NCBI RefSeq assembly: GCF_033845285.1
Contig: NZ_JAWXCX010000001.1
Location: 1,255,495-1,319,494 of the forward strand
Reading direction: 5' to 3'
DNA length: 64,000 nucleotides
Source: Marinococcus sp. PL1-022
Lineage (GTDB): Bacteria; Bacillota; Bacilli; Bacillales; Marinococcaceae
Part shown: in pieces, positions 2,797-63,533 of the stretch
Position numbering within the stretch: the stretch's first letter is position 1
How the letters are laid out: every line of letters begins with the position of its first letter
The notes under the pieces: generated by a model
Seen by the model: the letters and a program-made list of their open reading frames with translations, nothing else
Database searches by the model: none
Told to the model about the DNA's origin: nothing
Made by a program: the position numbers and the translations under genes

Positions 2797-3864
2797 ATGA
2801 GGGTATTATATGCGGGCATGGAGAATGAACTGCTTGTACTCACACACAGCGGTGAAGGGTGGCGGATGCAGGCAAAGCTTAAAGGGACTCAGCCCGTCCG
2901 GGTGGCGGTGGATCCTTCTAATGCTTCCATTGTTTATTGTGCCACGTACGGGCATGGGCTTTGGAAAAGCGAGGATGCGGGAGAAAGCTGGCAGGCGATA
3001 GGGAAGCCGCAGTTGTATTTTGAACCGGCGGGGGACCATGGTATTCCTTCGCCGTACATCACGTTTGTCGGTACAAACCCGGTGAAGAAAGGGGAGGAGT
3101 CGCATGTTGTGTATGCCGGCACCGAGCCTTCGGCAATGTATTACTCAGAAGACGGGGGCAGGCACTGGCAGGAGTGGACCGGAATCCAGCACATGACCTC
3201 CAGATCGGAATGGCAGTTTCCGCCCCGTCCCCACACGCATCACGTCCGCTGGATCACGCCGGGCTACGGGAATCCCGATCATATAGCAGTTTCCATTGAG
3301 TACGGGGCCGTGCTTTTGTCAGAGGATCATGGAAGCACCTGGCAGGACCGGCCGGAGCACAGCCCGAGAGATGTGCATACTCTTCTGGCTCATCCGTCTG
3401 CTCCCGGCCGCCTGTACGCAGCCTGCGGGGACGGCTTTATGAACGCTTCATTTTCTTATGCAGAAAGCGAAGACGATGGATGGCACTGGCATTATCAGAG
3501 CGAAGGACTGGAGAAGCATCCGTATCTTTATAATATGGTGCTGAACGCCACGGACGCAGACGACCGGTTCGTTTCCGCCGCCAGAGGGCCGCGCGAGGCC
3601 CATTCTTCTGATGCCGCGAGCTCCGCTATTTACCGAAAGGAGGGAGAGGCTCCTTTCCGGGAAATATCCCGGGGACTTCCGGCAGGTTCCTTTGCCCACG
3701 TCCTGGCCCAGGATCCGGAGGATACCGACATATTTTACGCGCTCAATAATCACGGCATCTTTTTCCTCCGAACGGACGAAGAAATATGGCAGCCTCTCAA
3801 TATAGCCTGGAAGGATGCATATAAGCAGCAGCACCCGTCGTGCTTTACAGCGGGCTCCCTGTAA
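2797..3864 (+). CDS. Asp-box (BNR) repeat beta-propeller protein
   Basis: A 355-aa protein built from repeated Asp-box motifs (S-x-D-x-G-x-x-W): SEDAGESW near residue 55, SEDGGRHW near 115, SEDHGSTW near 180 and a diverged copy near 225. This pattern marks sialidase/sortilin/YCF48-type beta-propellers. No signal peptide or catalytic sialidase residues are evident, so a cytosolic binding or scaffold role, or an undefined hydrolase role, remains open. The ATG at 2797 is preferred because GGGAGGG lies 8 nt before it; a GTG at 2788 overlaps that site. It is monocistronic between two terminators. Confidence 0.82.
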   Translation: MRVLYAGMENELLVLTHSGEGWRMQAKLKGTQPVRVAVDPSNASIVYCATYGHGLWKSEDAGESWQAIGKPQLYFEPAGDHGIPSPYITFVGTNPVKKGEESHVVYAGTEPSAMYYSEDGGRHWQEWTGIQHMTSRSEWQFPPRPHTHHVRWITPGYGNPDHIAVSIEYGAVLLSEDHGSTWQDRPEHSPRDVHTLLAHPSAPGRLYAACGDGFMNASFSYAESEDDGWHWHYQSEGLEKHPYLYNMVLNATDADDRFVSAARGPREAHSSDAASSAIYRKEGEAPFREISRGLPAGSFAHVLAQDPEDTDIFYALNNHGIFFLRTDEEIWQPLNIAWKDAYKQQHPSCFTAGSL

Positions 3865-4218
3865 AAGAATCAACAGGGAGATAAAGCTCACTCCGGCATA
3901 TTAAGAATTGAAGTACCGGTATGTTTTACTTTGAAATCGCGCGGGTAAATATATTTTATAACGCAAAAACCAACACAGCTTTCACTGTTTCAAAATTTAA
4001 ATAAACGGCGGAAATGAATGGATATAAAAGCCAGTACATGAGCCGGAAAAAGGAATTCGTTCCTTTTTCTGGCTTTTTTTATTGGGAAAGCACCCCCCCA
4101 TGTAGCCTGCGCCAAAAGGACTTGGGGTCAGGTATTACGGTAAGAAGGCATTTATTATCGGCTTTTCGGTATGATGCGTTAAAAAATGATGAAATCAAAG
4201 AAAGAGAGGAAGCATAAA
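3865..4218. other. Intergenic stretch with one strong terminator
   Basis: Apart from the TTCG-loop hairpin at 4041-4083 I see no credible gene here. The base composition is AT-rich up to about 4010. A short frame at 4014-4217 runs through the terminator and has no ribosome binding site. Confidence 0.6.
4041..4083 (+). terminator. Strong TTCG-loop terminator
   Basis: A 15-bp stem with one mismatch (AGCCGGAAAAAGGAA pairing with TTCCTTTTTCTGGCT), closed by a TTCG tetraloop and followed by a long T run. It lies about 175 nt after the propeller gene. Confidence 0.82.
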
Positions 4219-4317
4219 ATGGAAATAGCAGCAGTAATTTTGTACGGCGTCTTTGCGGCGCTTCTATTGATTAATCCAGCACAGATTAACAAAACTAAAA
4301 GCCGGCAGCCGAAGTAA
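4219..4317 (+). CDS. Small single-pass membrane protein, 32 aa
   Basis: A 32-residue frame with a good ribosome binding site (GAGAGGAAG, about 8 nt before ATG), one N-terminal hydrophobic helix (AAVILYGVFAALLLI) and a basic polar tail (KTKSRQPK). A hairpin terminator follows within 20 nt, so it looks like a self-contained transcription unit. No family is recognised. The membrane location is inferred from hydrophobicity. Confidence 0.55.
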   Translation: MEIAAVILYGVFAALLLINPAQINKTKSRQPK

Positions 4318-4336
4318 ATATTAAAATTCACGGGGG

Positions 4337-4377
4337 ACCATCAGGGCGCACGCTGACCTGATGGTTTTTAGTTTTTC
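4337..4377 (+). terminator. Terminator of the 32-aa protein gene
   Basis: Nine-bp arms ACCATCAGG (4337-4345) and CCTGATGGT (4357-4365), followed by TTTTAGTTTTT. Confidence 0.78.
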
Positions 4378-51682: not shown

Positions 51683-52729
51683 ATGCGTAAGTCGTCGTGG
51701 GAAGCACCGGGGTTTGAATATATATTTCGTTTTTTATTGACTGAACGGGAGAGAGCTGTTTTATATACTCTCTATCTGCTGTTTGTAGGTGTTTTATTCT
51801 TCGACAGTATTGTAGTGGTGGATTTTCCGTGGCCGGTTCTTATAGCATGGCTAATGTTTATAAGCGCCGGGCTTTATTTGATTCGACGTGGTTTTCGACG
51901 CCAACAGTCCATGCTCTTAACATTCTACATGATAGGCAGTATGGGCTGGTGGGCGGGAGCTGTCATAGCTACTGGCGGGGTGGTTAATAGTCCACTGGTG
52001 CATTACGGACAGGTGTTATGGGTGTTAAGTGCCCTGTCAGCCTCATGGCGCCTGAATGTGGCGGGTGGCACGGTGTTTGCAGCGACCCTCGTGGCTAGCT
52101 TGAGTATGTCCATGAGCCGCGTCGAGATGCTTGAAGCCGGGGGCGTAGTAGCCATTCACGGGCTGACGCTCGCTTTTGGCTGCCTGGCGGCAGTAGCTGT
52201 GCACCGGCACAGGATATGGATTACTCACTGGCAGGAGCAGGCTCATACCGACGATTTGACAGGCATGGCCAATCGGTCCGGATGGCTGGCCTGGTGGAAG
52301 CAGAAGGCGCCGACAGACGGCTGGATCGGCATAATTGACCTGAATAATTTTAAAACCATGAACGATACGTACGGTCATGAATGCGGGGATCAGGTATTGA
52401 TGGCAATGGCGGAAGAGCTGCAGGCATCACTGCCCCCGGAGTCATCTGCCGCCCGCATTGGCGGGGACGAGTTTATGATTTATCTTCCCTCTCACATGAG
52501 CGAAGCCGAGGCGGTGGACACCGTGTGGCAGTTGGCCCAGTGTGTCGGCCAGACTATGCAGATGCCGGTAACAGCGGCGCTGGGGCTGGCCCGGATAACA
52601 CCGAAGCATTGCGATTTTCAAGAGCTGTACCGGCGGGCTGATGCTCATATGTATCAGCAGAAGCAATCCAAAGCCTCATTTACGATGAATCCGGAGGCAC
52701 AAAATCGAAAAAGGACTGTCCAAAATTAG
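51683..52729 (+). CDS. Membrane-bound diguanylate cyclase (GGDEF)
   Basis: 348 aa: about six membrane helices (residues ~20-180) and a GGDEF domain with HTDDLTGMANRSGW, IIDLNNFKTMNDTYGHECGD and an intact RIGGDEFMIYL. It should make c-di-GMP from two GTP. The RxxD inhibitory site before GGDEF is missing, so product feedback is unlikely. The ATG at 51683 has only a weak binding site. The last codons run into the terminator stem and the TAG lies in its loop. Confidence 0.9.
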   Translation: MRKSSWEAPGFEYIFRFLLTERERAVLYTLYLLFVGVLFFDSIVVVDFPWPVLIAWLMFISAGLYLIRRGFRRQQSMLLTFYMIGSMGWWAGAVIATGGVVNSPLVHYGQVLWVLSALSASWRLNVAGGTVFAATLVASLSMSMSRVEMLEAGGVVAIHGLTLAFGCLAAVAVHRHRIWITHWQEQAHTDDLTGMANRSGWLAWWKQKAPTDGWIGIIDLNNFKTMNDTYGHECGDQVLMAMAEELQASLPPESSAARIGGDEFMIYLPSHMSEAEAVDTVWQLAQCVGQTMQMPVTAALGLARITPKHCDFQELYRRADAHMYQQKQSKASFTMNPEAQNRKRTVQN

Positions 52730-56134: not shown

Positions 56135-56166
56135 GGCTTTGATGACGGCCAGGTCCTGGTTTTTTG
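56135..56166 (+). terminator. Weak hairpin with T run
   Basis: CCAGG and CCTGG arms with a long loop, followed by TTTTTTG. A possible terminator of the upstream 136-aa membrane protein transcript. Confidence 0.35.
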
Positions 56167-56847
56167 ATCACGTTGCATATGATAGTAGAAGACGGGATTC
56201 TCTTAACACAAAAGCAACCCTTCACCCGGATTCCCTTATTCTCTCGCGGCAGGCAGGGGTTCGCGTCTGGAGGGGTGACTGGTACCAAGGAAGCCCCATT
56301 TTTTCCGAACATTCCTACGGGGGAAATATTTTCAGTTACCCATAAAGAAGAAGTAAATGGCAGGCTCGTAGCCAAAAAACCGCTCGTCTATGAGGGAACG
56401 GTTATTAACGATATTTCCCTTACATTTCAAGATGGACGAATAACGTCCTATGCTGCAGCCAATGGACAAAAAGCATTAGAGCGTCTGATCGAAACAGACG
56501 AAGGTTCTCATTATTTAGGGGGAATTGCCCTAGTCTCTAGCCATTCACTTCTTGCTCAGACAAATACGCTTTTTTACAATACTCTGTTTGATGAAAATAC
56601 AGACTGCCATATTGGCATCTGTAACGCTTCGCCTTTCAATCTTCAATATGGCAGCAGTTTATCGAAACAAGCGTTGGAGGCAGCCGGACTGAATACATCC
56701 CTTCTGACGGTAAATGTCACTTTCGGCACGGAAGATATGAAGGTGATGGGGGTCAAAAAAGACTGGGAAGAAACTGTATCTATGAAAGTAGATACAGTTT
56801 CTTCTTTGTTAAAAGGTGTGGCAATAATGTTACATATTGATATATAA
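56164..56847 (+). pseudogene. C-terminal remnant of an M29 aminopeptidase
   Basis: From about residue 45 on, the frame matches the C-terminal half of M29 (AmpS/PepS) aminopeptidases: PNIPTGEIFSVTHKEEVNG, KPLVYEGTVINDISLTFQDG, LIETDEGSHYLGGIALV and NTLFYNTLFDENTDCHIG. The N-terminal domain (~180 aa) is missing and the first ~45 residues look like non-coding sequence. Where a catalytic Glu is expected (LGEIAL) it reads LGGIAL. The C-terminus runs into a terminator. The gene is therefore almost certainly dead. Confidence 0.75.
56767..56808 (+). terminator. Terminator inside the end of the M29 remnant
   Basis: GAAGAAACTGTATCTA pairs perfectly with TAGATACAGTTTCTTC (16 bp) around a 6-nt loop, followed by TTTGTT. 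Confidence 0.75.
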
Positions 56848-56875
56848 AAACAATTTTCAAACAATTGTCACAGCA

Positions 56876-56905
56876 TTGATGAGTGAAAACCGATACGATG
56901 ATACT
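56876..56905 (+). promoter_or_regulatory. Candidate promoter of the nos-like operon
   Basis: TTGATG, 17-18 bp, TGATAC/GATACT, about 60 nt upstream of the first gene. No full FNR palindrome is visible; a TGTCACA-like half-site is present at about 56866. Confidence 0.35.
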
Positions 56906-56966: not shown

Positions 56967-57611
56967 ATGAACAAGAAAAGCATGATAATGCTGTCATCAA
57001 TGCTGGTAACAACAGGAATCATGACGTCGTGTGGTGGAGAAACAGGCCAGGAGGAAAACAGTGAAGGTCAAAACCAGATGCAGGAAGAATCGCAGGAGGA
57101 GAATGGAGAAAACGCCAGCGGGGACGACACAGCCAATATCGACAACATGACGGCCGAAGAGCCGGGGAAAAATGAAACCTGCTACTACTGTGAAATGGGG
57201 ATTCCACATCCAGAAGACGAGCAGTCTGTGTTTACCGCCCAGGCCATCACGAATGACGGCGAGCGCGTCTTTTTTGATGATTCCGGGTGCGTAGAAAATG
57301 CGGAACAGGAACAGGATGAGGAGTTCGCGAAAGTATGGGTAAAAGATTACAGTTCGGATGAATGGACCGAGCGGGAAGGAACCACGGTAGTGGCCGATAA
57401 TTCTCTCGAGACACCAATGAGTTATCAGTATGCGTTCTTTGAAGAAGAAGCGGATGCCGATGCGTATGTGGAAGAGCATGAGGCTGAAGCTGCTTCCTGG
57501 GAAGATGTACAGGCCGATGCTCATGAGCGCGCACAGGGTGGGAGCATGGATCATGAAGAAATGAATCATGAGGACATGGACAGTCACGATGACGAACAGG
57601 ACAACTCGTAA
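56967..57611 (+). CDS. NosL-like lipoprotein with acidic linker and His/Met-rich tail
   Basis: 214 aa: a signal peptide with Cys22 (IMTSC), a long Glu/Gln/Asn-rich linker to about residue 68, a NosL domain containing CYYCEMGIP (Cys72, Cys75, Met77), ERVFFDDSGCV and ETPMSYQYAFF, and a tail with MDHEEMNHEDMDSH. CxxCxM is the copper(I)-binding motif of NosL; the His/Met/Asp tail may bind extra metal. AGGGGAGA lies about 7 nt before ATG. First gene of the operon; its end overlaps the nosD start by 23 nt. Confidence 0.85.
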   Translation: MNKKSMIMLSSMLVTTGIMTSCGGETGQEENSEGQNQMQEESQEENGENASGDDTANIDNMTAEEPGKNETCYYCEMGIPHPEDEQSVFTAQAITNDGERVFFDDSGCVENAEQEQDEEFAKVWVKDYSSDEWTEREGTTVVADNSLETPMSYQYAFFEEEADADAYVEEHEAEAASWEDVQADAHERAQGGSMDHEEMNHEDMDSHDDEQDNS

Positions 57612-58977
57612 GAACGGCAGGCGGCTTTCGAGTCTCCTGTTATTTACATTGCTGACTATGAGTTACCCCGGTCAAGCCCAGGCCGAAACCTCGATACAGG
57701 AACAGATCGATCAAGCGGAACCGGGAGACACGGTCACTGTGAGCGAAGATGTCGCAGAAGAATCGGTAACGATCGATAAACCGCTAACGCTGCAAGGCGA
57801 CGGCGTGACGATGAGGAATGATGCGGGAGAAACTCTTCTCGCTGTCGAATCGGAGGATGTCACCATCGAAGGGATCCGCTTCGTGCAGGAAGATACCCAA
57901 ATTGAGGAAAGCATTGTGCCGGGGCAGGAATACGAGGCCGTTGAGTCCGAACCGGTCGTTTCTATTACGGATAGTGAGGGATTTACGTTTACCAATAACG
58001 AAGTAAAGATGATCGGATCTGGGCTGTATGCGGAAGCCAGCGATGCGTTTACCGTCACGAATAATGAATTTAACGGAACCTATTCTTCCTACGTGAACCA
58101 GGGGCTGGCAGCCGTCGAATTGTACGAAACCAATCAGGTGACCATTACGGGAAATGATGTCGAAAATGCGCTCGACGGTTTTTACCTGGATTCGCTTCAG
58201 GAAGCCGTCATTCATGAAAACGCGGTGACCGATTCCAGGTATGCCGTTCACTTGATGTACAGCTCCCAGGTGGAAGGTCACTCCAACCGTTTTCAGGACA
58301 ATGTCAACGGGCTGATGATCATGGATTCGGAGGAAGCGGAATTTTTTGAAAACACCTTAACGGATCAGTTTGATGTCCGCGGCTATGGGCTGCTGGTGTA
58401 CCGGTCGGAAAATATTCACCTGCATGACAATGAGATTTCACGTAACAGTACCGGGGTAAAACTCGAGGAAACCGAAAACGTTTCGATTCACGATAATGTG
58501 ATTGCCGGGAATCAGGTGGGACTGAGCTGGGAACGGCAGCAGGCAGACGTCAACTTTTATCATAATGACATGGTCAGCAATGTTCTATCTACGCAAGGGG
58601 CATTCGTCGAGAAACTATCCCTGTCCCATCAAGCAAAAGGAAACTACTGGAGTGACTATGCTTTGATCGATAAGAATGGGGATGGTGTAGGAGAGGCACC
58701 ATATGTCGCAGGATCCATCTACGACGCCATGCTGACGGATCATCCGGAATGGCAATTGTTTATGCACAGCCCGTCCATGACGCTGTGGAGTCAGGTGTCC
58801 GAGTGGCTTCCCTCACAGACCGGCCAAGAAGTCACGGACGAACAACCCCGTGTCGATTCCGATTTTGAACGAGCCAATGAGCCGTTAACGTCCGGAACAT
58901 TTGCCGGCGTTGGCGGCGTACTGCTTCTGCTTTCCGGGGCTGGGATGTACTATTTCCAAAGGAGGAACAGCAAATGA
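57589..58977 (+). CDS. nosD: NosD, periplasmic-type beta-helix protein
   Basis: 462 aa with a signal peptide (LLLFTLLTMSYPGQAQAE), a right-handed beta-helix made of repeated strand blocks (GLYAEASDAFTVTNNEFNG; VTITGNDVENALDGFY; SENIHLHDNEISRNSTGV; GNYWSDY near the end) and a C-terminal membrane helix (GVLLLLSGAGMYYF). NosD works outside the membrane with NosF and NosY in maturing the copper site of nitrous oxide reductase. ATG 57589 is chosen because it gives a clean signal peptide; initiation is probably coupled to the upstream gene. Confidence 0.9.
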   Translation: MTNRTTRKNGRRLSSLLLFTLLTMSYPGQAQAETSIQEQIDQAEPGDTVTVSEDVAEESVTIDKPLTLQGDGVTMRNDAGETLLAVESEDVTIEGIRFVQEDTQIEESIVPGQEYEAVESEPVVSITDSEGFTFTNNEVKMIGSGLYAEASDAFTVTNNEFNGTYSSYVNQGLAAVELYETNQVTITGNDVENALDGFYLDSLQEAVIHENAVTDSRYAVHLMYSSQVEGHSNRFQDNVNGLMIMDSEEAEFFENTLTDQFDVRGYGLLVYRSENIHLHDNEISRNSTGVKLEETENVSIHDNVIAGNQVGLSWERQQADVNFYHNDMVSNVLSTQGAFVEKLSLSHQAKGNYWSDYALIDKNGDGVGEAPYVAGSIYDAMLTDHPEWQLFMHSPSMTLWSQVSEWLPSQTGQEVTDEQPRVDSDFERANEPLTSGTFAGVGGVLLLLSGAGMYYFQRRNSK

Positions 58978-59432
58978 AAAAAGCACCGATGGTTTTAACG
59001 GTCATGGCAAGTCTTGCGTTGAGTGCCTGTCAGCAGGCCTCGCATGATCCCCACGGCATCGACCATGACGTGGATACATGCGAAATCTGTAACATGGCCA
59101 TTAACAACACCCAGGCGGCGACTCAAATCGTCATGGAAGATGGCAGTGCCGTGAAATTTGATGATATTGGCTGCATGATGCAGTACAAAAAAGAGCAGGC
59201 AGGGGAGTCGGAAAGCTTCCATACCGAATATATTAACAGCTACGGGGAAGAAAGCTGGACCGAGGCCGAAGAAAGCGTCTACGTTTACGATGAAGATATC
59301 TCGACCCCGATGGGGAACGGTGTGATCAGCTTTGGCTCTGAGTCAGAAGCCGAAGCTTATATGGAATCGGAGGACCAGGGTGAATTACTGAGTTATCAAG
59401 ATCTATCTGACCACGACTGGAACAGCTTTTAA
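58974..59432 (+). CDS. nosL: NosL copper-binding lipoprotein
   Basis: 152 aa with lipobox Cys19 (LALSAC), the copper motif CEICNMAI (Cys36, Cys39, Met41), KFDDIGCMMQY and STPMGNGVISF. It starts in an ATGA overlap with nosD; the SD-like AGGAGG lies inside the nosD end. This is the ordinary-size NosL; the operon also has a longer NosL-like protein first, so the function is duplicated. Delivers Cu(I) by family analogy. Confidence 0.9.
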   Translation: MKKAPMVLTVMASLALSACQQASHDPHGIDHDVDTCEICNMAINNTQAATQIVMEDGSAVKFDDIGCMMQYKKEQAGESESFHTEYINSYGEESWTEAEESVYVYDEDISTPMGNGVISFGSESEAEAYMESEDQGELLSYQDLSDHDWNSF

Positions 59433-59434
59433 CG

Positions 59435-60259
59435 ATGTTTGCAGCCTTTTACAGAAACGATATGAAGCAATTCACCCGCAATCAGTGGCTTGTATGGTTT
59501 GGCCTGTTATTTGTGTTGGTCTCGACCAGCTTCATTCTCTTTGGAGGCGCCAACACGGAAACTTATGACGGCTTCAATACCACAACGGCGAGCCTGCTGA
59601 ACGTGAATCTATTCCTGCTGCCACTTATCCTCTTTGTCATGGGAGCCGTCAGTGTAGCAGCAGAAAAAGAGGAAGGGTTGTTTGCATTGGTAGTAAGCTA
59701 TCCGATCTCTTATATGCAGCTGGTAACGGCAAAAATATTGTCGCTTGTTACAGCCATGCTGCTTATCTTATGTTTTAGCTACGGCGTAGCTTCCATGGCG
59801 GGCTTTTTTACAGGAACATCACTTGCCTCGAATACATTGATATTATTTCTCTTTTTATCCGTGCTGCTTATAGTACTGTTGGCTCCGTTAGCCATTTTCA
59901 TGGGTGTTTGTACGTCCACGAAGTTTCAAGCGATGGCTCTGGCCCTGGGCGTATGGGCTTTTTTGGTGCTGTTGTATGAATTTTTGTTTATGGGCCTGAT
60001 TACGATGGTACCACCATTGTCGCTGACGGTCTTTTTAACCCTGGCCGTGGCAGCTAACCCAGTGGAATTGGTACGCGTAGCGACCATTATCATTATGGAT
60101 GGCGGGGTGTCCCTCGGACCTTCCTTATATGATTTTACGGCCTATTTATCCGGGGGATTCGGTGCTTTGATTCTGGCCGTCTTTGCAGTGCTCTGGCTAA
60201 TAGTGCCAACGGCCGTTAGTTACGGTCTGATTCGAGGAGGGAAAACGCATGGAAGCTAG
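59435..60259 (+). CDS. nosY: NosY-like ABC-2 permease
   Basis: A 274-aa membrane protein with six helices, starting FYRNDMKQFTRNQWLVWFGLLF. VMGAVSVAAEKEEGLFALVV and SYMQLVTAKILS form the typical cytosolic loop of NosY. It begins 2 nt after the nosL stop and overlaps the ATPase gene by 11 bp. It should pair with the ATPase and NosD. Confidence 0.86.
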   Translation: MFAAFYRNDMKQFTRNQWLVWFGLLFVLVSTSFILFGGANTETYDGFNTTTASLLNVNLFLLPLILFVMGAVSVAAEKEEGLFALVVSYPISYMQLVTAKILSLVTAMLLILCFSYGVASMAGFFTGTSLASNTLILFLFLSVLLIVLLAPLAIFMGVCTSTKFQAMALALGVWAFLVLLYEFLFMGLITMVPPLSLTVFLTLAVAANPVELVRVATIIIMDGGVSLGPSLYDFTAYLSGGFGALILAVFAVLWLIVPTAVSYGLIRGGKTHGS

Positions 60260-60974
60260 CTCATCGATCTTGCGACTGGAAAACATTTCTTTAAAGCACC
60301 GATTTCAGCCGCTGACGTTTTCCATTACTAAAGGAAGCATTTATGCCCTTTGTGGTGGGAATGGCGCGGGAAAAACGTCATTATTCAGCGTGCTCACAGG
60401 GATGAACCGACCGTCGAGCGGAACAATGTATATGAGCAATGGGGAAATTCAAAACCATTCAAACACGTATCGGCAGTCTTTTTCCTACATGCCCGATCAA
60501 CTGGTTTTTCCCCGACATTTAACTGGGATTGAAACCCTTCGTTTTTTTTCGGACTTGATGGGGGAACAGCAATACAAGGTCACCGAAATTTTGCCATATG
60601 TAGGGTTGGAAGAAGCAAAGGATCAAAAAGTGAAAACCTATTCGAAAGGCATGCAGCAGCGGTTGAATCTGGCTCAGTGTTTGATGGCAGATGTTCCCTT
60701 GTATATGCTCGACGAACCGACGAACGGGCTGGACCCTTACTGGGCTTATCAAATGAAGGATATTATTTTGGATCAGAAAAAGAAAGGAAAAACGATTATT
60801 TTTTCGACACACTCATTATCTCTGGTCGATGATATTGCCGATGACCTGTTGTTTTTACAGCAGGGAAAGGTGCTGATCAACGAGCCCATTTCCCACCTGC
60901 AGCAACAATTTGGAGATCAGAACGATCTGAGTTCCTATGTGTACCATTTGGTTGCTTCCCAGGAACATACATGA
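60249..60974 (+). CDS. nosF: NosF-like ABC ATPase
   Basis: 241 aa with Walker A CGGNGAGKTS (about residues 35-44), signature YSKGMQQRLN, Walker B LYMLDEPTNGLDP and switch STHSL. It energises the NosDFY complex by family analogy. Translation is probably coupled to nosY. Confidence 0.9.
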   Translation: MEASSSILRLENISLKHRFQPLTFSITKGSIYALCGGNGAGKTSLFSVLTGMNRPSSGTMYMSNGEIQNHSNTYRQSFSYMPDQLVFPRHLTGIETLRFFSDLMGEQQYKVTEILPYVGLEEAKDQKVKTYSKGMQQRLNLAQCLMADVPLYMLDEPTNGLDPYWAYQMKDIILDQKKKGKTIIFSTHSLSLVDDIADDLLFLQQGKVLINEPISHLQQQFGDQNDLSSYVYHLVASQEHT

Positions 60975-60989
60975 AGGAGGAGTAAGTTT

Positions 60990-61562
60990 ATGCATAGCGA
61001 TAAACGCCAGGAACAAATCGTAGCCTGGGCGAAGCAGTACGGCACCGTCCGCATCGCTTTTTTAAAAGAGCAATTGGGCGTCTCCGAGATGACCATTTAC
61101 CGCGATATACAGAAAATCATGCAGGAAGAAACGATGGAACGAGTACCCGGAGGCGTGAAGTATCTGGAGCCTTCCGCGAGCCCCAAGCAATGCCGGGTCT
61201 GTTTTCAATCGTCCTTTTCCGTGCAGGCCGCGCAGCTTATGCATCCGGATGGCACGATGGAGCACTTCTGCTGTCCGCACTGCCTGCTGATGTTCACGGC
61301 GCATCACGGACATGACGACCAACAGCTGATCGGACGTGATTTTCTGCAGGGAACGACGATGAATGCGCGGCTGGGAACCTTTTTGATCGGGGCGGACGAA
61401 TGCCTGCACTGCTGCGCGCCGCAGGTGCTTGTATTCCGACAGCACGAGCAGGCCGTCAAATTTCAAGCGGGCTTTGGCGGGCAGATCCATGGCTTTTCCG
61501 GGGCGGTAACAGCCGTAACTTCAGCCATGTCCTGCTGCTCATCAGAATCCAGGCATCCTTAG
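60990..61562 (+). CDS. DeoR-type regulator with NosL-like metal-binding domain
   Basis: 190 aa. Residues 1 to about 60 form a DeoR-like winged helix (YGTVRIAFLKEQLGVSEMTI; YRDIQKIM). The rest is rich in Cys and His: CRVC, FCCPHC, LHCC and MSCC, with the segment LIGADECLHCCAPQVLVF then KFQAGFGGQIHGFSGAV reading like a degenerate NosL/TRASH domain. I infer a metal-sensing regulator of the operon, perhaps of copper. AAGGAGGAG lies about 9 nt before ATG, in the middle of the operon. Confidence 0.8.
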   Translation: MHSDKRQEQIVAWAKQYGTVRIAFLKEQLGVSEMTIYRDIQKIMQEETMERVPGGVKYLEPSASPKQCRVCFQSSFSVQAAQLMHPDGTMEHFCCPHCLLMFTAHHGHDDQQLIGRDFLQGTTMNARLGTFLIGADECLHCCAPQVLVFRQHEQAVKFQAGFGGQIHGFSGAVTAVTSAMSCCSSESRHP

Positions 61563-61603
61563 AACGAGATAATTCCCCGGAATGTTTAGCACAGGAGGAA
61601 CCC

Positions 61604-62974
61604 ATGAAACCACAGACAAACCACAAAAATAAAACAAACCGGCAGCATTATAATGTATTCTGGCGGTGGCATTTTTATGCCGGGATCATCCTGGCTCCGA
61701 TTTTATTGATGCTGGCTATTACGGGAGCGACGTATCTGTTTCGCGGCAATATTGAACAATGGCTGTATCAGGACTATACAGAGGTAGCTGCGGAGGGGGG
61801 GCAACGGGAAGCCTCTGCCATTACCGGCGCGGCCATGGAAGCGTATCCCGATGGTACAGTGGCCCGCTACCAGCCGCCGTCCGAAGAGGGTGAAACGGCA
61901 GAGGTGGGAATAACCAACGCCTCCGGAGAGGGAATGACGGTATTTGTGAATCCCTATAACCTGGAGAGCACCGGAACGCTGCTGGACCAGAACCGGATCA
62001 TGGACCGGGTGGAAGAATTACACGGAGAGCTGATGGCCGGCACGGTGGGGGACCGTATCGTGGAGACCGCTGCCTGCTGGACTATCTTTATGCTGGTCAG
62101 CGGGCTGTATCTCTGGTGGCCGTCCCGGCACCAGATGGCTTCCCGGAAAAGCTTTCTGCCATCGACGTCGACCAACGCTCGGGAGAAGCGCAAGCGCTGG
62201 CATTCGGTGCCGGCTTTTTGGATTTCGGGCGGTCTCGCTTTCTTTTTATTGACGGGCATGCTTTGGACCGGTTTTTGGGGAAACGGCATCCAGCAGTTGA
62301 CCACTAGCCAGGGCATCGGTTACCCGCCGTCGATCTGGGTCGGGGACGCTCCGGTGTCCGACCAGGTTACCGAAGAAACGGGGGACGTCTCGTGGGCTGC
62401 CGAGCAGATGCCGGTGCCGGAATCTTATGCTGCCAACAATTATGAACAAATATCCATCGACCGGGTCGTGAACGAGGCGGAACAAACCGGTGTGGCTTCC
62501 GGCTACGATGTGTTTTATCCGTCTTCCGACGAAGGCGTTTATACGGTGTCGGCCTTTCCGGACCAGGCCCAGGGGGAAGTGACGATGCATATGAATCAGT
62601 ATACCGGCAGTGTCCTGGCCGACTACCGGTGGGAGCAGTACCCGCCGCTCGCCAAGGTCATGGCGATGGGAATTACGATTCATAAAGGCCTGCAGTTTGG
62701 TATCTGGAACCAGCTGGCCGGGCTCCTCATCTGCCTGGGACTGATCGGCATGATCGTCAGCGGGATCCGGCTGTGGTGGACCCGCCGGCCGGAAGGAAAG
62801 CTTGGAGCACCTAAAAGCATGAGCAGCTGGCGGTTTCGGGGGTTTGTCGGCCTTGTGATTGGTTTTGGCGTCTTTTTCCCGTTATTCGGATTGTCGGTGT
62901 TGCTGATATACGCGGTGGACCGGCTGATTATTCGAAACAACCGGCGATTACGGTCGTTATTCCATGCGTCATAG
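61604..62974 (+). CDS. PepSY-associated membrane protein
   Basis: 456 aa with four to five helices of the PepSY_TM type: FWRWHFYAGIILAPILLMLA near residue 20, CWTIFMLVSGLYLWWP near 170, FWISGGLAFFLLTGMLWTGF near 205, LLICLGLIGMIVSGIRLWW and FGVFFPLFGLSVLLIYAVD near the C-terminus. PepSY regions lie in the extracytoplasmic loops. Related proteins are linked to iron reduction or copper handling and often sit in denitrification clusters. ATG 61604 has AGGAGGA 5-6 nt upstream. Confidence 0.84.
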   Translation: MKPQTNHKNKTNRQHYNVFWRWHFYAGIILAPILLMLAITGATYLFRGNIEQWLYQDYTEVAAEGGQREASAITGAAMEAYPDGTVARYQPPSEEGETAEVGITNASGEGMTVFVNPYNLESTGTLLDQNRIMDRVEELHGELMAGTVGDRIVETAACWTIFMLVSGLYLWWPSRHQMASRKSFLPSTSTNAREKRKRWHSVPAFWISGGLAFFLLTGMLWTGFWGNGIQQLTTSQGIGYPPSIWVGDAPVSDQVTEETGDVSWAAEQMPVPESYAANNYEQISIDRVVNEAEQTGVASGYDVFYPSSDEGVYTVSAFPDQAQGEVTMHMNQYTGSVLADYRWEQYPPLAKVMAMGITIHKGLQFGIWNQLAGLLICLGLIGMIVSGIRLWWTRRPEGKLGAPKSMSSWRFRGFVGLVIGFGVFFPLFGLSVLLIYAVDRLIIRNNRRLRSLFHAS

Positions 62975-62989
62975 GAAGGAGCAGTTATC

Positions 62990-63445
62990 ATGAAAATCAT
63001 GTTCATAGGCATAGCTGTATTGCTGCTCGTGAGCGGGTGTTCGACGCTCGATGCAAGCAATCATGAGGATTACGGCACCGCATCGCCTCCGGCGATGTAT
63101 ATCCACCCAGATCAGAGCCTGGAACCGCAGGAAGAGGAAGAGGTACAGATTCATGTGCTGCAAAACGAACAGCCATACGCTTTGGAGGACGAGGTCACCT
63201 TAACGGTCTATCATAAAGACCGGGAACAGATGCAGAAAATGACGGCGGAAGCTGTCCGTGAAGGCGTTTATACCGCGACCATTCGTGTGCCGGACGACGG
63301 GGTTTACACCCTGGAAGCTGCAGCGGGCCAGAATGAAGCAGGGCTGCGGACAGCGAAACAGATCGGCATCGGGGAGCTTACGTCAGACGAGCAGAGTATG
63401 TTGGCCGATGAAGAAGCGATGAATCATGACCACAGTCACCATTAA
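62990..63445 (+). CDS. FixH/YtkA-like lipoprotein
   Basis: 151 aa: signal peptide with lipobox Cys17 (LLLVSGC), a beta-sandwich domain (EVQIHVLQNEQPYALEDEVT; EGVYTATIRVPDDGVYTLEA) of the FixH/YtkA type, and a histidine-rich end (MNHDHSHH). Such proteins are thought to bind copper for oxidases. AAGGAG lies about 10 nt before ATG. Last gene of the operon; a terminator follows. Confidence 0.8.
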   Translation: MKIMFIGIAVLLLVSGCSTLDASNHEDYGTASPPAMYIHPDQSLEPQEEEEVQIHVLQNEQPYALEDEVTLTVYHKDREQMQKMTAEAVREGVYTATIRVPDDGVYTLEAAAGQNEAGLRTAKQIGIGELTSDEQSMLADEEAMNHDHSHH

Positions 63446-63500
63446 CATAGGGGAAATATCTTTTTTTGATGTATATAGACGTGGAAATATGAGTAGAGAA

Positions 63501-63533
63501 AGCAAAGCCTGGGCATGAGGGCTTTGCTTTTAT
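63501..63533 (+). terminator. Terminator of the nos-like operon
   Basis: AGCAAAGCC (63501-63509) and GGCTTTGCT (63520-63528) form a perfect 9-bp stem, followed by TTTTA. Confidence 0.78.

Follow-up and report, generated by a model that had tools for sequence, protein, structure and literature searches.

A NosZ-less nos accessory operon with a YcnK-like regulator in Marinococcus and its candidate role in copper limitation

In the window, the whole 64,000-nt stretch of Marinococcus sp. PL1-022 DNA analysed here, eight genes at 56967-63445 combine a full NosL-NosDFY relay with a YcnK-like regulator, a PepSY_TM membrane protein and a YtkA-like lipoprotein. Since a copper relay and a YtkA-like protein are found here behind a promoter linked to YcnK, we regard the locus, with a probability of about 0.6, as a copper-limitation operon that delivers copper to a site exposed on the outer side of the membrane, its client most likely being CuB of the Qox oxidase or a solitary CuA-domain lipoprotein. 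The usual view reserves NosL and NosDFY for the CuZ site of N2O reductase, and CuZ of NosZ is the one target that they have been shown to serve (PMC7558416); a full relay joined to a regulator of the copper-starvation type, in a genome where NosZ, NirK and multicopper oxidases went undetected, offers a clean test for other clients. Orphan NosDFYL is itself already in print (PMC13068155, PMC3475470), and what is new here is the linkage of the nos genes to YcnK together with the lack of a known client.

All eight genes lie on the + strand, tightly packed and with every frame open in our ORF and Pfam-type domain searches (Table 1). An earlier, sequence-only reading had named the same families and placed the genes with overlaps or gaps below 45 nt, and we recovered all of these ORFs and domains: the largest overlap, of nosL1 with nosD, is 44 nt, nosD and nosL2 overlap by 4 nt and nosY and nosF by 11 nt; nosL2 and nosY are separated by 2 nt, nosF and the regulator by 15 nt, the regulator and the PepSY gene by 41 nt, the largest gap, counting the PepSY start at 61604 (a longer ORF from 61400 was set aside), and the PepSY gene and the lipoprotein gene by 15 nt. 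NosL1 carries a lipobox, the motifs CxxCxM and FDDxGC, and a tail rich in His, Met and Asp. A signal peptide and a C-terminal TM helix were assigned to NosD by eye, and its score against TIGR04247, 248.9 bits, is under the curated cut-off of 300, as expected of a divergent member. The last protein scores 23.7 bits for YtkA (PF13115; cut-off 25.9) and 21.4 for FixH (cut-off 23), and, the PF13115 score being under its cut-off, we name it only YtkA-like. The four nos families of the operon correspond one by one to those of the NosDFYL complex of Pseudomonas stutzeri (PDB 7osj, 7znq), NosD, NosY and NosF matching chains of the solved complex and NosL being reached through a profile of the NosL set; the window differs from it in having two NosL, the order L-D-L-Y-F and a YcnK-PepSY-YtkA tail, and in that NosZ was not found.

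Table 1. Features of the operon and its borders in the window.
Feature	Coordinates	Strand	Evidence
Candidate promoter/operator region, common to G012 ycnK leader	56817..56902	+	Local alignment
nosL1, NosL-family copper lipoprotein	56967..57611	+	Pfam NosL 46.7 bits; alignment
nosD, beta-helix NosD	57568..58977	+	Pfam NosD 111 bits; PDB NosD E 2.9e-18
nosL2, second NosL lipoprotein	58974..59432	+	Pfam NosL 63.5 bits
nosY, ABC permease	59435..60259	+	ABC2_membrane_2; sole PDB match NosY, E 1.9e-10
nosF, ABC ATPase	60249..60974	+	ABC_tran; PDB NosF E 7.7e-33
ycnK-like regulator, DeoR HTH and C-terminal NosL-fold Cys/His-rich sensor domain	60990..61562	+	HTH_DeoR
PepSY_TM membrane protein, candidate metal (cupric) reductase	61604..62974	+	PepSY_TM (PF03929) 223 bits
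YtkA/FixH-like lipoprotein, His-rich C-terminus	62990..63445	+	Sub-cut-off Pfam matches; G012 orthologue
Terminator-like hairpin, operon 3' end	63498..63531	+	13-pair

The operon is bounded at both ends, as had been proposed. At the left is an M29 aminopeptidase pseudogene (56164-56847), a 227-codon ORF in which the Pfam model is matched only over its C-terminal portion, with a 16-pair hairpin after it at 56767-56804; an intact gene for 416-417 aa is found in the sister species G012, in G013 of the same genus and in G015 of the same species. At the right, a convergent Fur-family ORF lies beyond the terminator-like hairpin. GC3 was dropped as a sign of foreign origin, the values for the nos genes (0.51-0.58) and for ycnK-PepSY-ytkA (0.61-0.68) being uninformative against the mean of the other window genes, 0.515 (sd 0.10). 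Farther out, the operon is flanked by a pair of GGDEF-type genes, 51683-52729 of the window and 3345-4376 of locus L142, which are 63% identical and about 15 kb apart.

That the operon has a metal regulator of its own, as the first reading held, is borne out by the joining of a DeoR HTH to a NosL-fold sensor domain. The C-terminal half, rich in Cys and His that are invariant among 15 aligned homologues, is related to the NosL family by profile comparison (95.6% probability, E 1.3e-8), and for an AlphaFold2 model of the regulator (pLDDT 86) the top PDB hits of Foldseek are the NosL structures 7og7 and 7znq_L. An HTH followed by a NosL-like sensor domain is what we take to be the YcnK architecture, as in YcnK of B. 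subtilis, and on this domain make-up the regulator is YcnK-like, a member of a known copper-sensor family. YcnK is the copper-dependent repressor of B. subtilis ycnKJI (PMC8424229), an operon whose expression is raised by copper starvation and lowered by ample copper (PMC12154828, PMC13344008) and whose YcnJ, a CopC-CopD-YtkA fusion under YcnK control, supports Qox in copper starvation (PMC13344008). As in ycnKJI, a regulator of the YcnK type here shares its operon with a YtkA-like domain (PMC13344008, PMC8424229); on the other hand, NosL-NosDFY-PepSY stand in place of the CopC-CopD importer, copC and copD are located elsewhere, and there is no YcnI-type gene.

Of 397 genomes of the order, 58 have a homologue of the regulator, and most of these are without NosD. 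Across 20 of these loci (L046-L065), the next gene is mostly PepSY_TM and less often YtkA, and in one locus, in genome G016, the ycnK homologue is divergent from copC-copD. Pairs of a ycnK-like and a PepSY_TM gene are seen in most of the 20, nos genes in the window locus alone. A ycnK homologue is present in 6 of the 71 genomes that carry NosD; in the five besides ours it is separated from nosD by over 1 Mb or lies on a different contig, so that, within the sample, ycnK adjoins nos genes only in the window. Other PepSY_TM proteins are known as siderophore reductases, and this analogy, along with the linkage to ycnK, makes the PepSY_TM protein of the operon a possible cupric reductase; the recurrent pairing makes a YcnK-controlled copper reductase across Bacillales possible. 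According to its authors, the B. subtilis work still lacks a dedicated copper reductase (PMC13344008), and the YcnK-PepSY_TM pair is a candidate for it.

The history of the promoter ties the regulator to the nos genes. The 86 bases at 56817-56902, 5' of nosL1, align with the upstream region of ycnK in G012 with a local alignment score of 63, which none of 2000 shuffles reached. They enclose an 11-nt direct repeat, AACAATTTTCA-AACAATTGTCA at 56849-56870, and YcnK of B. subtilis requires a direct repeat; by comparison with one species, G012, the region is a candidate operator. A motif trained on distant ycnK genes is present in most of them and gives no score in the window's promoter region, and it was rejected as the operator here; upstream of copC in the same genome, no YcnK-like site was found. 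In G012, the nosL1-type promoter block is directly 5' of ycnK, PepSY and ytkA, which are 76, 85 and 54% identical to the window genes, the YtkA-like orthologue being in the same place, and two nosF fragments are found in between: the first encodes DVPLYMWDEPTSG, where the window counterpart is DVPLYMLDEPTNG, and the second the final residues VYHLIASQKNT-stop, which in the window are VYHLVASQEHT-stop. The remnants mean that, before the split of the two species, ancestral nos genes sat between the promoter block and ycnK-PepSY-ytkA, and that they were then lost in G012, with the block, ycnK, PepSY and ytkA being kept; as read from this alignment of two genomes, the nos genes and ycnK were already under a common promoter before the split. 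That the nos genes came in only recently, behind a ycnK promoter, seemed likely at first but is ruled out by the same remnants, which indicate loss. The operon DNA has no match in G015 or in G013 and G014 of the same genus, and an intact nos set is missing from all four other sampled genomes of the genus; its role is therefore dispensable in close relatives. In locus L047, the two fragments of the nos deletion scar in the ycnK leader occupy 2060-2240 on the minus strand.

The genome searched is complete, with 3.2 Mb in three contigs. NosZ was sought with TIGR04246, the clade II/Gram-positive model, alone, and no credible nosZ was found: the best score is 20.4 bits against a cut-off of 625, and this lone weak match comes from the CuA domain in a small lipoprotein. 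The claim that the N2O reductase gene is absent thus agrees with the genome-wide search that had been proposed for it, and the idea that the operon supplies a nosZ encoded elsewhere finds no support. The other option put forward at the time, another copper enzyme, could be narrowed. The copper nitrite reductase model has no match in the genome, even at the level of multicopper oxidases, for which it is presumably that the B. subtilis and E. coli control genomes are positive; a CuA-type cytochrome oxidase subunit was not found either, the sole COX2 match being weak and QoxA-like. On these searches, nosZ elsewhere, NirK or a multicopper oxidase, and a CuA cytochrome oxidase were rejected as clients, and Qox and the solitary CuA lipoprotein remain. 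With NosZ not found, copper would have to go to some other client site exposed on the outside of the cell membrane, and, as Qox provides the only heme-copper oxidase subunit I detected, it is the first candidate and the lipoprotein the second. The genome has copC and copD as separate genes, so the operon is not the sole candidate route of copper uptake, and NosDLYF as a substitute for CopD was set aside because both are present. For that reason we made no use of the rarity of CopD in genomes with NosD and without NosZ (14/42 against 25/38 hand-chosen controls, p 0.007, uncorrected for kinship).

In the copper-limitation operon that we favour, a YcnK-like repressor would hold the promoter down in copper plenty and release it when copper is scarce. 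The two NosL lipoproteins would capture copper outside the cytoplasm, and the ABC complex of NosD, NosF and NosY would receive it from NosL and pass it onward, presumably in this direction, using ATP. Reduction of Cu(II) to Cu(I) may fall to the PepSY_TM protein, the YtkA/FixH-like lipoprotein would be a further copper carrier, and the copper would most likely end in CuB of Qox or in the solitary CuA-domain lipoprotein. The latter, of 122 aa, is encoded at about 1861755-1862123 of contig C1 of this genome, G000 (L001 1396-1764), and contains CSVPCGEGHTDM, with the ligand set H...CxxxCxxxHxxM. Being the sole CuA protein found, with the CuA domains of cytochrome oxidases as its best PDB matches, it could also be served alone, with Qox left out; we hold this narrower reading to be unlikely, however, as the gene is unlinked, some 0.55 Mb from the operon, and NosL is tied to the CuZ and not the CuA of NosZ (PMC7558416).

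In favour of the copper-limitation operon, some NosZ-less loci elsewhere stand next to CopA, CsoR or nirK, and in Shouchella the same partners are accompanied by an SCO protein and a copper ATPase. The presence of CopA and CsoR, together with the His/Met/Asp-rich tails of NosL1 and of the last protein, would also fit a copper tolerance device, with NosDFY and NosL shifting surplus copper, or trapping it, on the outside of the membrane. We find this quite improbable: the ycnKJI operon under YcnK rises in starvation and falls in plenty (PMC12154828, PMC13344008), and the YcnK linkage of the window is older than the split of G000 and G012.

The wider survey covered 397 genomes of the order, with NosD counted at E values up to 1e-40. 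NosD occurs in 71 genomes, and 41 of these, several of them single-contig, are without NosZ, against 30 of the 397 that are positive with TIGR04246. Conservation of the nos accessory genes only together with nosZ, which had been named beforehand as refuting the sequence-only reading, is thus not what is seen, and the rarity that this reading implied does not hold: NosZ-less nosDLYF is common in the order and orphan NosDFYL was in print already (PMC13068155, PMC3475470). Of that reading, the nos accessory operon without NosZ and the metal regulator within it endure; the rarity and the nosZ elsewhere do not. With 41 genomes having nosD without nosZ and 30 with it, nosD is unsafe as a marker of N2O reduction. 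The NosZ loci have the order cytochrome c-nosZ-nosB-nosD-nosY-nosF and the NosZ-less ones nosD-nosL-nosY-nosF, with a second nosL in 19 of 55 loci and with nirK, CopA, CsoR, PepSY, YtkA, a beta-propeller lipoprotein and a histidine kinase pair among the neighbours. A quick tree built from 84 NosD puts the NosZ-linked rows together in a single group, and the window row is outside it, with Halobacillus and Shouchella. In one genome, G264 (L120), nosZ is interrupted by stop codons and nosD, nosY and nosF are still open.

Such decay invites the view that the window genes are a functionless relic of N2O respiration, left after the loss of nosZ. The failure of TIGR04246 to find nosZ in the genome, the absence of the gene set from most of the genus and its decay in G012, and the broken nosZ of G264 would all suit it, but we give it little credence, given that none of the eight closely spaced frames is broken, that the window NosD is outside the single NosZ-linked clade, that the D-L-Y-F order is unlike that of the NosZ loci, and that 41 genomes of the order retain NosD without NosZ. 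Still less probable is a role in maturing a multicopper oxidase or a copper nitrite reductase, which has been suggested in Parageobacillus (PMC13068155): nirK adjoins nosD-nosL-nosY-nosF without nosZ in eight sampled loci (L087, L093, L098, L100, L101, L102, L112 and L115), whose NosD group together with one further row in the quick tree, and NirK is enriched in the genomes with NosD and without NosZ (9/41 against 19/326; Fisher p 0.0016, uncorrected for kinship), but 32 of the 41, and the window's genome, whose search gave no match where the control genomes did, are without NirK, so that such a client may hold for the nirK clade and not here.

The published loci without nosZ are similar in part. 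In Parageobacillus thermoglucosidasius (PMC13068155) and in nos clusters 4 and 5 of Bacillus azotoformans (PMC3475470), nosDLYF or part of it is found without nosZ, as in the window; NirK was proposed as the client of the orphan NosDFYL in the former, and supply of NirK by the extra nos copies was suggested by the authors of the latter. Those species have NirK or NosZ as possible clients, whereas neither was found in the window's genome, and the accessible text of both accounts makes no mention of a YcnK link. Taken more broadly, and only tentatively, NosDFYL in Bacillales could be a general machine for copper delivery with clade-specific clients, NosZ in some, NirK in others and, under YcnK control in copper starvation, CuB of Qox or the solitary CuA protein, with PepSY_TM as the missing cupric reductase.

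The nearest relatives of the window NosD, from Halobacillus sp. A1 (L034; 55% identity) and Shouchella oshimensis (L035; 40%), stand in loci that share with the window the order nosL-D-L-Y-F, the two NosL genes and the PepSY gene. The S. oshimensis locus also has a YtkA-like gene, as in the window, and in addition an SCO protein and a copper ATPase. Both differ from the window in having no ycnK, and in both a gene for a beta-propeller lipoprotein is nearby, along with a histidine kinase/response regulator pair. The lipoprotein is YncE-like and recurs in the vicinity of nosDLYF loci that have two nosL genes and no nosZ, at 4445-5428 of L034 and 7727-8704 of L035 and in L107-L109 and L117.
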